Assembly (NCBI GenBank): GCA_937998305.1
Contig: CALLDL010000120.1
Span: forward strand, 1-64,000
From: an uncultured Desulfobacterales bacterium
GTDB lineage: Bacteria; Desulfobacterota; Desulfobacteria; Desulfobacterales; UBA11574
Reading direction: 5' to 3'
Length of the DNA stretch: 64,000 nucleotides
How positions within the stretch are numbered: position 1 is the first letter of the stretch; every line of letters begins with the position of its first letter. Shown here piece after piece: positions 607 through 24,454 of the stretch. The notes below the pieces were generated by a model, which was not told the DNA's origin, searched no databases, and saw nothing but the letters and a program-made list of their open reading frames with translations. The position numbers and the translations under genes are program-made.

Positions 607-830
607 CCTATTCACAGGACAAGCCCAAAAATCATCCCTTTGTTTTTGCATTGAACCAATTTGATATCACAATATCGTCTATAGTCCAGATACTGGCACC
701 CATTAAAAGGCCCCTGTCAAGAGAAAACACCTCTCCTTTCCATCGAAACTCTTAATTCATTGCTACTGCAATGTGACATATTCACATCAGAATTATTACG
801 CAATACTATGTAAATAATGTAATAATTTTT

Positions 831-854
831 ATGTAATTTGCCCCACAATTACAT
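831..854. promoter_or_regulatory. Inverted repeat ATGTAATT-N8-AATTACAT, candidate activator (EBP) site
   Basis: Perfect 8-bp arms about 90 bp upstream of a sigma-54-like promoter; related TGTAAT/ATTACA half-sites occur upstream of the second PEP-CTERM cassette. Confidence 0.45.
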
Positions 855-944
855 AGTTTTTTCTATGAGTTTGCATACCTATTTTTCATCAAATTTATAT
901 TAACCATTTGATAAATCTATTATTAATAGACAACTTATTATTTT

Positions 945-960
945 TGCACGATTGTTGCAT
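945..960 (+). promoter_or_regulatory. Sigma-54-like -24/-12 promoter (TTGCACG-ATTG-TTGCA)
   Basis: One mismatch to TGGCACG-N4-TTGCA; upstream of a PEP-CTERM ORF. Confidence 0.6.
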
Positions 961-1310: not shown

Positions 1311-1460
1311 ATGAATCGAATATTGACCGATAATGGAGGAAGACGTTTAGGTATTGAAAGGCGTCAATTCTCTTATGATTTTCACATTCCTGAACGCAGA
1401 TCTGGAAAGGAACGGCGAAGCGGACTCGATAGAAGGCTAAAACCAAGAACATCAGAATAA
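1311..1460 (+). CDS. Arg-rich 49-aa microprotein (MNRILTDNGGRRLGIERRQFSYDFHIPERRSGKERRSGLDRRLKPRTSE)
   Basis: Not in the ORF track (too short); ATG 7 nt after the PEP-CTERM stop; same length as and 31/49 identical to the ORF at 24257. Confidence 0.75.
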   Translation: MNRILTDNGGRRLGIERRQFSYDFHIPERRSGKERRSGLDRRLKPRTSE

Positions 1461-1476
1461 CAAAAATTATTTTAAC

Positions 1477-1507
1477 AGGCAGGATCAGCTAATGGCTCTG
1501 CCTTTTT
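1477..1507 (+). terminator. Terminator of the PEP-CTERM/RR cassette 1
   Basis: GGCAG...CTGCC followed by TTTTT. Confidence 0.75.
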
Positions 1508-1586
1508 AATATCCATATCCTGTAGTTTGAGGTTTTAGAACCTATTGCATGTATCTGCTATGTATCTTGAGTTCTGAAGCTGGAAA

Positions 1587-3179: not shown

Positions 3180-3298
3180 AGATTTTGTATATCATAAGGG
3201 CAAATTCTTTTTCGGGGGTTTGCTTTTTTGCATTTCTGTAAAAAATAAGATATATGTACTGGAAATTGAGGTGCTTGAACCTGTTGTACTGGCAAGAT
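3180..3298. repeat. About 125-bp intergenic repeat, copy 3 (overlaps the lgt 3' end)
   Basis: AAGGGCAAATTCTTTTTCGGGGGTTTGC...GTAAAAAATAAGATATATGTACTGGAAATTGAGGTGCTTGAACCTGTTGTACTGGCAAGA. Confidence 0.85.
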
Positions 3299-5826: not shown

Positions 5827-8800
5827 TTAGAAGTCGATCATCCCCACGCCCCAACTGATTGGCGCAGTTGTCATTGCAGTAGTTACGTCCAGAACTGCTC
5901 CTCCTGCTCCAACAATAGTCTCTGTCGCAGCACCAAGTCCTCCGCCAATCGCTCCTGTCAAAGCCCCAATACCAGCGCCTTTGCCAGCCGCCCAAGCTAT
6001 ATCCCCGGTAGATGCACATGGGTTACTCCAGGCTTTACCAAACGCACCACCGAGTGCGCCACCAACTATTCCACCAGCTATTCCACCAACGAATCTTCCT
6101 AGCTGAGGTGCAACAATGCCAACCATGCCGCCAGCAAATCCACCCACAGCACCTGCTGCGATAGCTGTCCATACATTTCCGGATTGTATTCCTGAAAGGA
6201 ATCCACCATAGGCTCCTGCAATTGCGCCAATTACAACTCCAGCCTCACCAGTTGAATCAACTTTATTTATCGGATCGTTTAAGCAATATCCGTATAAGTC
6301 AGTATCTCCTCCAGTGAAAAGAATTGGATCTTTTGCGGTCCACCTACCGGTATCAGGATCATAGTCGCGGTATCCGAACCGAACTAATCCTGTGTCTCTA
6401 TCGTGCAGCCCCCCGGCAAAACAAAATGGCACCAAAAACGACGGATTGGTATCGTCAATGATATTCCCAAAGGAATCGTAATCGATTCTTTTTACCACAT
6501 TACCCGATGCATCTGCAACAATTCTTAAGGAACCCACCTGATCATAGGTGAGATAATAGGTGGAGCCGCCTTTGGTCATGGCAACGGGCGTTCGGCCGTC
6601 TGCATACTCAAATCGCATGAGGAGGTTGTCGCTGCCGTCATAAACTGCCAATAGTCGAGTTAACCCCTGCCAGAGATATTTTTCAGTGATGACACCATTA
6701 ATCTTTTTCACGATCCTTCTGCCTAATGGATCATGGACATGTTCGATGATCCGACCATCAGGGAGCGTAACGCTCAAAAGCTCCCCACGAGAGGAATAGT
6801 CATAAGTGGTGACATCTGATCCGTCGGTCTTGGCCGCTAAAAATCCGTCCAGGTTATAAGAATAAATTACAGAGCCTGCGGTTAACAGATGATCTTCGTC
6901 GTCGTAGGAAAAACTCTTTCCGGCAACCCCTCGTAATGTATTCATCTCATAAATGCGAGTTCCATTGGCATCGTATTGATATTCTTCAATCAGCGTGCTG
7001 TTTTTGGTTACCGTTCGCAGCCGCCCCATGGCATCATAGGTGTAGATGTAATCGGAAGATGTACTGCCGACAGTTTCTGACTTATTCGTTATACTTCCAT
7101 TATTATCCCTAATAAGATTCCATGAGGTTGAGTTTTGGCTATTTATAGTAAAGTCCTGTCCATCTATTTCGCCATAGCCATTAAAACTACGGCTCAGGTT
7201 CAGTGAACCTCCGGTTACGGACTCGGGAAGTCCATTTTGAGCATTGCGGGTGATAGCGAAACTGCCGGCACCGGTTAAAAGCCTGTCGTTGTCGTATGTG
7301 TAATTAACAGTATTGCTCGCATAGGTGAAGCATGTTAGGTCAAAATCATCGTTATAGGTGTAGCCAAAGGTCTGGTTTAACGTACCGCTCAAGGTTTCGA
7401 ACGTAACAAGTTTTCCATCATATCCATACGTAATCGATTCAGATCCCTTTGTGATCGAACCCACCTTTGTACTACATAGATAGGCAAAATCGATATTGCC
7501 TTCCGGGGTCTGGATCTGAGAAAGTCGTGTTGTATCATAGATATTTTTGATCTGGTTTCCGGAAGGAAAGTTGGTTTGTTTCAGTCTCCTGTCCTTGTCA
7601 TACACATAACTGTAGCTGCCGTTCAACGGGGTCTGGTATGCGTTGTTCAGATTGACCTTGTTATAACCAAACCCGTGATTGATGTTTGATGGATTGGTTA
7701 ACACGGTCATGTTGCCGTTTTTGTTGTAGGTTAAACCTATAGAGCTTCCATCTGGGCGGTTGATTCCGGTCATTCTGCCCACTGCATCACAACTGTAACT
7801 TGTTATGTAGTTCTCCGGATCGGTAATGGATTCCAGAAATCCTTGTGCATTATAAGTAAGGTCGGTCCCTCTGGTATTGGTATCCACAGACGTCAGCCTT
7901 CCTCTGGTATCATACCCGTAGGCCGTATCAAAAAGACCGGGTATGCTCATACTTTCTGTCACCAGTGTTGAAGGATCATAAAGCATGGTTATTGTTCTTC
8001 CTTCAGGAGACGTCACCGTTTTTTGAGATTTGAGAACGTTATTCTCAAACGTCGTCGACTTGCCGTTAACTGTCACCGTTTCGGTAATCAGATCCGGAAT
8101 GTCGTCCGTATCCGTATCCTGGTATGTCTTATCCCTGAGTGTAACCTTCTCCAGGGCGGAAGGCGTGGTTTCCATCATTTCTTTAACAAATTTAAATTTG
8201 TACTCAGAATCAAGGCCATATTTAAATTCAAGATCCATACCGCAGGGAAGGGTTTTATTCACGGTCAACCCATCGCCTGATTCACTAAACAGAGCCTGAG
8301 AGCCTGTAGGATCGTTAATGGTGGAAGTGTAAGCCCCGGTTGAGTATGTGTAATCCAAGTAAGAGGTAAGGTTTCCTTCTCCGGTGAGCACCTCTGTTAG
8401 AATATCGCCATTTGCAGAGGCCGTTCTGCTGAATTGCCAGTGTCCGCCTTCCTGATCTATAGCATCCGTCAACTTTCCGTTGGAATCAAACACATGTTCA
8501 AATCGATTTGCTTCAGGCTCTATCTTGGCTGTCATCAGCCCGTCAGGGGTGTACTCAAAGCTGTAGAAACTGCCTTCCGGATAGGTGATGCGGGTAAGAT
8601 GGTTATCGGCTTCTATGGTTAACTGGGTCGTGAGACCATCGAGAGAAGTAATCGATGTCGGCACACCGTTTCCGTTCCGATTGATTGTGGTTTGGTTGCC
8701 AAATTGATCGGTGATGTAGATCAGATTGTTGTTTTCGTCATAGCCGAATTCATGTATTATAGCTCCCGTATCAAGGTCGATGGTGGTTTTGTGAAGACTA

Positions 8801-11800
8801 TCACTGGACATGATATGCCCCAGACCATTCTCCTCTGCAAAGGGGATGTCTCCGCCGACCATTGAGGCTGCAAAAACAGAGGGTGGTCCTACCTTTCGGA
8901 TGCGGGAGCTATCAACGATAAATATATTTCCCGCGCTATCCGTCGCTAATCCTCTAGGATCGAAACCCGCATCCGTGGCAGGGCCGCCGTCTCCGCTAAA
9001 ACCACCGTATCCATTTCCTGCCACGGTGGTGATAATACCACTGGTGTCTACCCTTCTGATGCGGTAGTTCGATTGATCAGCGATAAATATATTTCCGGCG
9101 TTATCCACTGCTACTCCATATGGCATACTAAGACTTGCATTCGTGGCAGGGCCGCCGTCTCCGCTAAAACCATCGTATCCATTCCCCGCCACGGTGGTAA
9201 TAATACCGCTGGTATTCACCTTTCGGACGCGGTGGTTAAACCAATCAGCGATAAATATATTTCCGGCGCTATCCATCGCTAATCCTCTAGGATTGAAACC
9301 CGCATCCGTTGCAGGGCCGCCGTCTCCGCTAAAACCATCGTATCCATTCCCCGCCACGGTCGTGATAATACCGCTGGTGTCCACCTTTCTGATGCGGCGG
9401 TTATAGTAATCAAGGATAAATATATTTCCTGCGCTGTCTACTGCTACTCCACCAGGATCCAAACCTGCATCCGTGGCAGGACCGCCGTCACCGCTAAAAT
9501 CTCTGTTTCCATTCCCCGCCACGGTTGTGATAATACCGTTGGTGTCCACTTTTCGGATGCGTTTGTTAAACCAACACGCGATAAATATATTTCCTGCGCT
9601 ATCTACCGCTACTCCTCTAGGATCGAAACCCGCATCCGTTGCAGGGCCGCCGTCGCCGCTGTAATCCCAGGTTCCATTTCCAGCCACGGTAGTGATAATA
9701 CCACTGGTGTCTACCTTTCGGATGCGGCGGTTACTGGTATCAACGATAAATATATTTCCTGCGCTATCCACTGCTACTCCAAAAGGTTTATTAAGACTCG
9801 CATTCACGGCAGGGCCGCCGTCGCCGCTAAAACCATCGTATCCATTCCCAGCCAAGGTTTTAATGATGAGAATATTATTCGTAATTATTGTTCCGTCGCC
9901 CTTATTCAGGATAGACAAATTCATGGGACTGACTTTATGGTGGGAAGAAAAGGTCCAACCCTCTGCGATGACTCCCCTGCCCCTGACTTCGGAGTAAACA
10001 GTTAGATTGCTGTGCTTCCAGGAGATCAATTCCTGCCTGGCTATGATTGCTGTAATCTCGCTCCCAGCCCGAGCGAATGCCCGGCCGAGATTACTTGCCA
10101 GATAGTATACTGCATCGTAAAGAAAACCCACACTAATGCAGGCAACTACGGGACCCCTGACCGGTTTTCCTAAATGGTCCAACCTGTCCCAGACAAATTC
10201 CGTTTTCTGATTGGGCAGAGGGTTTAATATCTGTTCAAATATACGACCCGCCACCTCAATCTTTACAATTATACTTTTGAGGCTGGCGGGGATCGTTTCC
10301 CCGCTGGCAGGAACGGATATAGCGGTCTTGTAACCTTCTACCCGGTTGTTGGCATAATGAAGGATAGTATCCGTGCCGGGAATGGGAACGTCTTCGTGGA
10401 ATATCCGGCTTCTTTCTTCAACAAAGGAGCCAGTGTGCGATTGACAGTTTTTTGGTTCTTCGGTTTGCTGGTCTGCTGTCGGCATTCCCTCCGGGTTCGC
10501 GGGTATGGCATCTGCCGGGGGCCCATAAGGCCAATTGCAGTCCCAGGGGGTAAAATGGGTTACAGCCACTCGCCAGAAAGTGGAATCCGGTTGGTATGTC
10601 CCGGCATCGTTTAAGCCCGAAACTTCGTCACTGAATAATCCATTATCGTTAAGATCCTCGGGTTGATCATCTCCATCTGCATCCATAGCATCCACAATGC
10701 CGTCCGAATTCGTATCGAGAAGTTTCACAACAACACCGTTATCCGAGGGTACCCATACACCTCTGTCCCGATCGTAGTAGCCCACAGGGACAACCATCCC
10801 CACATCGAATCCAAGGAAATTATCCACCCATATCGTCACTGGTTTTTCAAACCGAACCCTTTGCGCGCCATCCACGCTAAGTTCTGCACAATATGTGTAT
10901 GCAGACGTGGGCGGCAAGACAGCCGGCATGGACTCAGGGGTCGTATACTCGGTGGCCCTGGTGATGATGGTGGTCAGCTCTTGAACATCATTGCCGTTTT
11001 CATCCACCAGATAGGCATGGTTATCTCCGGTAAAAACCATGGTCGCAGACCGGCTCCCGAATTCGTCGGTCACTTGCGTACTCTGGTGCGTAACCACCGT
11101 GTCCGGGTTGCCGTCAAAGGTGATGGTGGTGGCGATCGGGTCCTGGGTAATCATCTGGATGGTCTCGGCAATGGCAATGTCGTTCCAGGGCACATAGACC
11201 TTCCGATGGGCAATTATAAAGCCATCCTTTTCATAGACGACGGTTAACGTCGTTCCGCCTTCAACCGGAAGGGAAAATCGACCCTGTGCATCGGTTGACA
11301 CCGTGCCGTATTCCGGATGACCGTGCAGGGTCACGGAAACATCAGTTATGGGAGAATCGTCAATGGAACGAACCAGGCCGGTGATCAATGAAAATCGTTT
11401 GGAATCGTATTCATCCACCGTGGTATCGGTTGGAATCAGATCTTCATATTGTTCGCCGAAAGACCCTTCCGGCAGAGGCGCTGGATTCCCTGTCACCTGA
11501 ATCTTCGCTTGTGCACTGTTTGAGCCGGTGGGACCGGTTACCGTGATGGTGTAGGTGGTGGTATGGTCCGGTGAAACCGTTGTCGAACCATTCAACGGTA
11601 CGCTACCGACATCATTATCGATAAAGGCGCTTTGTGCTCTTTGAGAGTTCCAGGTCAGGGTTATCGATTCACCCTGAGAAATGCCCGCCGAAGCCGGGGT
11701 CATGGTTACGGTCGGGGGTGCGTTGGGATCGGTCACGGTGATGGTAACGTCAGCTGGGGCCGTGCCGCCGGGGCCGGTGGCGGTAATAGTGTATGTGGTG

Positions 11801-12612
11801 GTTTCTGAAGGTGATATTGACGTAGATGCATTGACTTCAACCGATCCGATACCCGGTTCGATTATGCAGGTACCTGCATGGGTGGAACTCCAGGTGAGGG
11901 TGGAGGATTCACCCAAAAGAATCGCTTCGGGATCGGCACCGATGCTAACGGTAGGCAAAGGTATGTTGACCGATACGGTGACGTTTTCAGTGGTTGTTCC
12001 GCCTGCGCCAACAGCGGTGAGCGTGTAGGTTGTGGTTTCGGCTGGAAAAACCTCATAAGACCCGTTTGGATCAACGCTCCCGATGCCTGGGTCTATGCTG
12101 ATGTTGTCGGCATCGATAACATCCCAGGCCAACGTGCTGGATTCTCCTAGTGTAATGGTCTGCGGATCTGCGGAAAAAGTGATTTCCGGAGGCAGAGCAG
12201 GGGTTCCTTCTGCATTGATCGTTATCGTTACGGAAGCTTCTGGGGTTCCTATGAGGAAAACGGTGATAAAGTTAATGGATCGTAACGTTATTTCTTTTTC
12301 AAACACGATTTCGTCCCCGAATAAAAAATTCCGAAGGGGAACAAGTGTGGTGTTGAAAAGAATAAATCCGCCGCTGGTCGGCTGATCGGGGGTATTTTTG
12401 TTGATGGTGATAATGCCTTCTCCAGGATCTTCGACATTGAACTTATGAACCGATGCGTGGATATGCCACTTTCCAATCTCAAAAGATTTTGGGCCGAATA
12501 CAGTTTGATTGTCTGCATGAATCAATGACGGGAAGGCAGAACAAATGAACAAAAAGATGAAGAGACAACATACTTTTCTATACATGGCGAACCTCCGGAT
12601 GATGTTTGGCAC
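5827..12612 (-). CDS. Giant secreted protein: Ig-like repeats, carboxypeptidase-regulatory-like domain, NHL repeats, YD/RHS repeats and RHS core, Gly-rich C-terminus
   Basis: Signal peptide; three [11 protein letters not shown]...TTTYTxTxxGxxG repeats; six [21 protein letters not shown] repeats; RHS core [41 protein letters not shown]. Confidence 0.93.
   Translation of the reverse strand: [2261 protein letters not shown]
8890..9870 (-). repeat. Six tandem NHL-type repeats (about 168 bp each) inside the RHS ORF
   Basis: Recurring [55 protein letters not shown]. Confidence 0.9.
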
Positions 12613-23789: not shown

Positions 23790-23805
23790 TTGCATGATTT
23801 TTGCA
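23790..23805 (+). promoter_or_regulatory. Sigma-54-like promoter (TTGCATG-ATTT-TTGCA)
   Basis: Same spacing and near-same sequence as 945-960, upstream of the second PEP-CTERM ORF. Confidence 0.55.
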
Positions 23806-24061
23806 TGTCCTATAGAGATATAGTCAGTATAAAAAAACTTAACTTCAACCTTTTTGCTGCATTCGATTCTTGGCGAGTTCCTTTTAAACTTCACTGAGAA
23901 ACCCTTAAAATATAGCATGTGTTGCTTTCAACAAAATAATTATTCTTTGTTAGAAGCTTAAAAAATATTCGGTTATCCATTTATCCAAAGTAACACGGAT
24001 GATCTTTTAAACGTTCACCGTGAATCGTTCTTAATATATCTGCTTTGTTTGGAAAAGTATT

Positions 24062-24250
24062 ATGAAAAAAAACTTCGTCGCCTCGGTGCTTTTAATTATA
24101 TATATATTCGGGTTTATAATTATCTCGACAGTTTTTGCTGATAATGGGGTAATTGACTCAATCTCCGTTCCAGAGCCTGCCTCCTTGTTCCTAATGGGAG
24201 TTGGTTTGGTTGGTCTTGCAGGGTTTGGACGCAAAAAATTTAAAAAATAG
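24062..24250 (+). CDS. PEP-CTERM sorting domain microprotein (62 aa)
   Basis: Signal peptide, then VPEPASLFLMGVGLVGLAGFGRKKFKK. Confidence 0.9.
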   Translation: MKKNFVASVLLIIYIFGFIIISTVFADNGVIDSISVPEPASLFLMGVGLVGLAGFGRKKFKK

Positions 24251-24256
24251 CTTACT

Positions 24257-24406
24257 TTGAATACTCCATTGACTAATAATAACGATAGGCGTTCGGGTGT
24301 TGATAGACGTCAATTTTCATATTATGCACATATTCCAGAACGAAGGTCTGGTAAAGAAAGGAGAATTAAGTTCGATAGAAGACTAAAACTGAGCAAATCA
24401 AAATAA
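24257..24406 (+). CDS. Arg-rich 49-aa microprotein, TTG start (LNTPLTNNNDRRSGVDRRQFSYYAHIPERRSGKERRIKFDRRLKLSKSK)
   Basis: Same length as and 31/49 identical to the ORF at 1311; same position 6 nt after the PEP-CTERM ORF. Confidence 0.72.
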   Translation: MNTPLTNNNDRRSGVDRRQFSYYAHIPERRSGKERRIKFDRRLKLSKSK

Positions 24407-24424: not shown

Positions 24425-24454
24425 GGCAGGGTCAATTATGACGCTGCCTTTTTT
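24425..24454 (+). terminator. Terminator of PEP-CTERM/RR cassette 2
   Basis: GGCAGGGTCAATTATGACGCTGCCTTTTTT. Confidence 0.8.

Follow-up and report, generated by a model that had tools for sequence, protein, structure and literature searches.

An arginine-rich microprotein of Desulfobacterales encoded behind a -24/-12 promoter element, with relatives resembling the c-di-GMP-binding region of CleD

Background

The arginine-rich region (ARR) of the Caulobacter protein CleD is sufficient alone to bind c-di-GMP, and the core of the Cle ARR is a tandem [Y/F]xGP[D/E][R/K]R motif (PMC5677366). Published ARR homologues are almost entirely alphaproteobacterial (294 of 302), and 5% of them are without known domains (PMC5677366). 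In CleA-CleE of Caulobacter (PDB 6sft) the ARR forms the tail of a CheY-like receiver. For PEP-CTERM genes, Haft and others, 2006 (PMC1569441), described a sigma-54 element accompanied by an activator box further upstream, and RpoN dependence has been demonstrated for one pepA gene (PMC9850573).

Here we analyse a gene family represented twice in the window, i.e. the whole 64-kb stretch of DNA under study from an uncultured Desulfobacterales bacterium. Its product, the RR microprotein, resembles the Cle ARR in being a short Arg-rich peptide. In contrast to the Cle ARR, it stands alone instead of forming a C-terminal receiver tail, is 49 aa long, occurs in multiple copies and belongs to Desulfobacterales; moreover, its window form has extra RRSGxDRR repeats.

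Two operons in the window and further copies in the genome

A sequence-only reading of this DNA had proposed a 49-aa ORF at 1311-1460, starting 6 nt after the stop codon of a PEP-CTERM ORF and preceding a terminator, with a same-length counterpart 23 kb away. The ORF has exactly the sequence reported there, the preceding ORF ends 6 nt ahead of it, and both the hairpin with its T run and the counterpart on the same strand were located (Table 1). An in-frame TTG is present at 1305, 6 nt upstream of the ATG. The hairpin was not among the listings of a simple terminator scan, and promoter and terminator scans of the window gave nothing of note. Both copies share one operon build, in which a -24/-12 site is followed by a tiny PEP-CTERM ORF, a gap that is again 6 nt in the second operon, the RR microprotein as the final ORF, and a hairpin. 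The two RR copies match each other far beyond chance (E 4.8e-14), with pS of 0.69 versus pN of 0.19.

Table 1. Features of the two RR operons in the window
Feature	Position	Strand	Evidence or remarks
TGTAA/TTACA repeats, candidate activator (enhancer) site	809..857	.	about 95-140 nt upstream of the -24/-12 element
-24/-12 (sigma-54-like) element TTGCACGATTGTTGCAT	944..960	+	shared with upstream stretches of other RR ORFs
Tiny PEP-CTERM protein, 81 aa	1059..1304	+	PF07589 E 1.9e-6, above cut-off
RR microprotein, 49 aa, ATG start, core GGRRLGIERRQFSYDFHIPERRSGKERRSGLDRR	1311..1460	+	homologues and purifying selection
Terminator-like hairpin, then T run	1477..1508	+	-12.2 kcal/mol, z -2.2 on folding
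-24/-12 (sigma-54-like) element TTGCATGATTTTTGCAT, second operon	23790..23806	+	motif match
Tiny PEP-CTERM protein, 62 aa, second operon	24062..24250	+	PF07589 E 5.1e-8, above cut-off
RR microprotein, 49 aa, TTG start, second operon	24257..24406	+	similarity to the 1311-1460 ORF
Terminator-like hairpin, then T run, second operon	24425..24454	+	-18.5 kcal/mol, z -3.5 on folding

Four more RR matches were found in the same genome outside the window: a stand-alone copy (C33), a motif at the C-terminus of an XRE-HTH protein (C64), a partial copy (C225) and a decayed copy with an internal stop (C22). Neither these copies nor the promoter element had figured in the sequence-only reading, which also put forward no function for the protein.

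At the window edge, positions 1-119 hold the 3' end of an XRE-HTH gene similar to the HTH-RR fusion in L005; it ends in ..KLSDSNKVFH without an RR tail, and its Pfam match is only indicative, the query residues before ISPLTITRIERGEP not being taken from the window. At four loci (L061, L075, L080 and L083) the RR gene is followed directly downstream by a member of a second small Arg-rich family (MSAYPYLQKERRSG..YYSGPERRSGMDRR).

Phylogenetic spread and codon-level selection

RR homologues were detected in 33 of 60 related genomes, at 1 to 13 copies each. The family is rare in the wider phylum (at least 11 of 396 genomes), and named matches come from Desulfobacterales and Deltaproteobacteria MAGs, Desulfosarcina widdelii and Desulfatitalea alkaliphila. 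The consensus of the listed ORFs reads DNGGRRxGIDRRQFSYxxHIPERRSGKxRRSGxDRR, and R17, R18, Y22, P27, R30, R35, R36 and R42 are invariant among 36 representatives.

Across 85 RR cores, mean pS and pN are 0.72 and 0.21, and the median dN/dS equals 0.157 (1850 usable pairs). Nine of the ten Arg columns of the core are written in all six codons with the amino acid hardly varying. Stops occur in most of the alternative frames, but one antisense frame stays open in 69 of the 85 cores. Since selection acts at the codon level, we take the ORF to be translated, in agreement with the earlier proposal. Either disrupted reading frames in relatives or a lack of purifying selection would have spoken against it; selection is evident, and decayed copies are few, with stops in C22 of the source genome and in some copies of relatives. 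We judge it nearly certain that this ORF is a genuine gene, conserved and present in multiple copies in Desulfobacterales. It lies below common ORF cut-offs, would escape standard annotation and is missed by family libraries: Pfam and NCBIfam scans returned no matching family model, and a literature search with motif strings found unrelated words only.

A rare -24/-12 element common to RR, PEP-CTERM and PilZ genes

An element like that of the second operon occurs at most 600 nt upstream of 34 of 103 RR ORFs, where about 2.6 would be expected from its overall density, although the stricter motif behind this count was read off the same loci and the enrichment is thus partly selected. With a looser sigma-54 scoring, tried earlier, the signal was diluted by chance matches. 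A whole-genome count provides the cleaner test: the TGCAYGNNNNTTGCAT form has nine sites in the 3.35-Mb genome, compared to none for the backwards control. The window contains only two such sites, one upstream of each operon. Of the remaining sites, one precedes a solo RR gene, one an ORF of unknown family followed by a decayed RR copy, one another PEP-CTERM ORF, and one a PilZ protein (PF07238, E 3.5e-8). Two others are upstream of a secreted protein with weak beta-propeller matches and of a protein with weak ferredoxin matches, and the last is at a contig end. Several RR copies stand alone behind the promoter element, without a PEP-CTERM neighbour. The RR gene, which is real and under purifying selection, has a rare promoter element in common with PEP-CTERM and PilZ genes, and it very probably belongs to one promoter set with them.

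The arrangement recalls the PrsK/PrsR sigma-54 regulon (Haft 2006; floc-forming bacteria), in that PEP-CTERM genes have a long leader and are preceded by a -24/-12 element, with a repeat upstream. The element found upstream here fits the -24/-12 spacing, with TG on the -24 side where GG is usual. TGTAA/TTACA repeats upstream of it are listed for both window operons and may be compared with the TTTACA motif of Haft 2006 (PMC1569441). In contrast to the PrsK/PrsR regulon, RR and PilZ genes have the element here too. A search of the source genome (88.6% complete) for PrsR (TIGR02915) gave nothing over the cut-off, the best score being 424 bits versus 502.6. The spacing of the element suggests that the RR operons are sigma-54 dependent.

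The ORFs upstream of the decayed C22 copy and in L006 looked PilZ-like by eye but matched no Pfam family.

PEP-CTERM neighbours and exosortase

The proposed pairing with a PEP-CTERM microprotein extends beyond the window. For 20 of 102 RR ORFs, the 700 nt upstream include the end of a PEP-CTERM ORF; among control stretches this holds for 58 of 3000. The source genome contains four PEP-CTERM ORFs. No EpsH exosortase (PF09721) was detected in five genomes of the genus (drafts, 68-89% complete) or in the single-contig genome G008, and the RR family is encoded in these genomes (G000 to G004 and G008). Among relatives, exosortase is present in 8 of 33 RR-positive and 13 of 27 RR-negative genomes. 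Because it is rarer in the RR-positive group, membership of RR in the exosortase system was rejected. The PEP-CTERM tails in the source genome may have a role other than exosortase sorting.

At L116 (3400-3765), the RR motif shares a single ORF with a charged stretch and a hydrophobic segment of PEP-CTERM-like character, although the PF07589 match of this ORF reaches only E 0.038.

Similarity of RR relatives to the CleD ARR

Distant same-length microproteins related to the RR family carry ERRQFNDLNYKGPERRSG, and a second family adjoining some RR genes carries DRRQKNDPYYSGPERRSGMDRR. We searched 177,635 PDB sequences with profiles of the RR family itself (A1), of the second family beside some RR genes (A2) and of the YKGPERR microproteins (A3). 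The sole match of A3 was CleD (6sft_A, E 0.0021). CleD was also the only match at E<=10 both for a single relative, L185/L201 (E 0.047), and for A2 (E 0.18). Not one of 19846 shuffled CleD peptides reached the A3 score, nor did any of 400 column-shuffled A3 profiles match the real score versus CleD. The A3 members were chosen for YxGPERR or for nearness to such sequences, which favours a CleD match, a bias that is not fully common to the single-sequence search and the shuffles. In the alignment of GAERRQFNDLNYKGPERR from L201 with GPDRRRFNSADYKGPRKR from CleD, identity is 53% over 19 columns.

The A3 family is in turn close to the window family: A1 and A3 align at an hhalign probability of 97.6 (39 columns, 51% identity), and A3 matches the window RR ORF at E 1.3e-7. 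Neither the window ORF nor the A1 profile had a match in the same PDB set. The link between the window protein and CleD is only transitive, since their direct comparison is weak: of the 18,599 shuffles scored, 250 do at least as well, and hhalign gives A1 versus CleD a probability of 13. The window ORF has GIERR and HIPERR in place of the tandem [Y/F]xGP[D/E][R/K]R core, and the bridging relatives contain one literal YKGPERR or YSGPERR each. Compared to CleD, HIPERR is one residue nearer to the preceding ERR, and the tyrosine and glycine of YxGP are missing. Because it lacks the tandem YxGP motif, the RR protein is not filed as a member of the Cle ARR family; by hypothesis it works like one.

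A CleD match from a probe written on the published consensus was not counted as evidence, as opposed to the searches with natural sequences; the chimeric probe was used solely to obtain further CleD residues. When the CleD peptide, the window ORF and the L201 sequence served as tblastn queries against plasmids, none gave a match.

Fusions and signalling context

RR-related motifs are fused to PilZ in L233 and L235, with PilZ on either side, and to a receiver domain in L232, where the motif precedes the receiver; a receiver fusion is thus a further likeness to the Cle proteins. Other fusion partners include XRE-HTH, a ParA-like ATPase and HIRAN, and L184 and L192 combine the motif with a C-terminal hydrophobic segment. 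Relatives of the RR motif accordingly both resemble the CleD ARR and are joined to signalling domains. Judged from these sequences, the PilZ and receiver partners, a small set, would fit c-di-GMP signalling. The RR motif is linked to PilZ c-di-GMP receptors by these fusions and by the common promoter element, but the microprotein has no PilZ match itself. GGDEF domains are encoded in the source genome and in 60 of 60 relatives, RR-positive or not, and are therefore uninformative for RR function. The predicted structure of the RR protein has a pLDDT of 66, no helix of four residues, no strand and no fold.

Proposed function and alternative explanations

We propose that the RR gene encodes a small cytosolic peptide, probably disordered, of the CleD ARR kind, albeit a stand-alone one. 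It would probably bind c-di-GMP through the core GGRRxGIDRRQFSYxxHIPERRSGxxRRSGxDRR, folding around the ligand, and act as a c-di-GMP effector or sink. A sigma-54 activator would turn on a small gene set comprising RR, the tiny PEP-CTERM surface proteins and the PilZ protein, and the peptide would couple the c-di-GMP level to this PEP-CTERM/PilZ surface or attachment programme. From sequence comparison, we consider the chances about even that the RR microprotein is a stand-alone c-di-GMP-binding ARR-like peptide made together with PEP-CTERM and PilZ products; both the ligand and the downstream target are inferred. Short Arg-rich motifs can converge, which counts against kinship with CleD.

The high Arg content, the predicted absence of stable structure and the XRE-HTH fusions would also suit an Arg-rich RNA- or DNA-binding peptide, unconnected with c-di-GMP, that might serve as a small chaperone or as an autoregulator; on this view each XRE-HTH fusion would unite two DNA-binding parts in a single protein. 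This explanation appears unlikely, given that charge alone does not account for the conserved spacing or for the Y, P, D/E and G positions, that relatives match one c-di-GMP-binding PDB peptide and no other chain, and that PilZ and receiver domains are among the other fusions. The recurrence of upstream PEP-CTERM ORFs, often at identical short spacing, and the composite ORF of L116 would instead suggest that the RR microprotein partners the tiny PEP-CTERM protein, as a peptide associated with polyanions, lipids or the membrane and interacting with the basic cytosolic tail or the maturation of that protein. We regard such a partnership as improbable, however, since most RR copies are without a PEP-CTERM neighbour, several are solo behind the promoter, and RR shows no tie to exosortase. 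A regulatory leader peptide or non-coding element, for which translation or RNA matters and the protein does not, could be suggested by the short ORF, the TTG start in one copy and the downstream hairpin, but codons change while amino acids stay, RR is the last ORF ahead of the hairpin in both window operons, and the motif is also a tail on larger proteins, all of which makes a leader exceedingly improbable.

Returning to the c-di-GMP-binding reading, its broader form is more tentative, and we lean slightly against it: a stand-alone, multi-copy family of c-di-GMP-binding micropeptides outside Alphaproteobacteria, under one sigma-54 promoter class with PEP-CTERM and PilZ genes, whose motif would have spread as a portable c-di-GMP module, forming tails of HTH, PilZ, receiver and ParA-like proteins. 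If c-di-GMP is bound, the family would provide second-messenger receptors about 50 residues long, with as many as 13 copies in one genome, and these would be reused as tails of other regulators. Binding would, in addition, point to a role for the unannotated Arg-rich tails of Desulfobacterota and to a connection of c-di-GMP with PEP-CTERM proteins where a genome has no detected exosortase.

Other observations in the window

By eye, an intergenic stretch (ataagggcaaatcc..gggtttgc) is repeated at about 1600-1640, 2420-2480 and 3190-3230. On the minus strand, a 2261-aa ORF at 5827-12612 appears, again by eye, RHS-repeat-like with NHL-like repeats.
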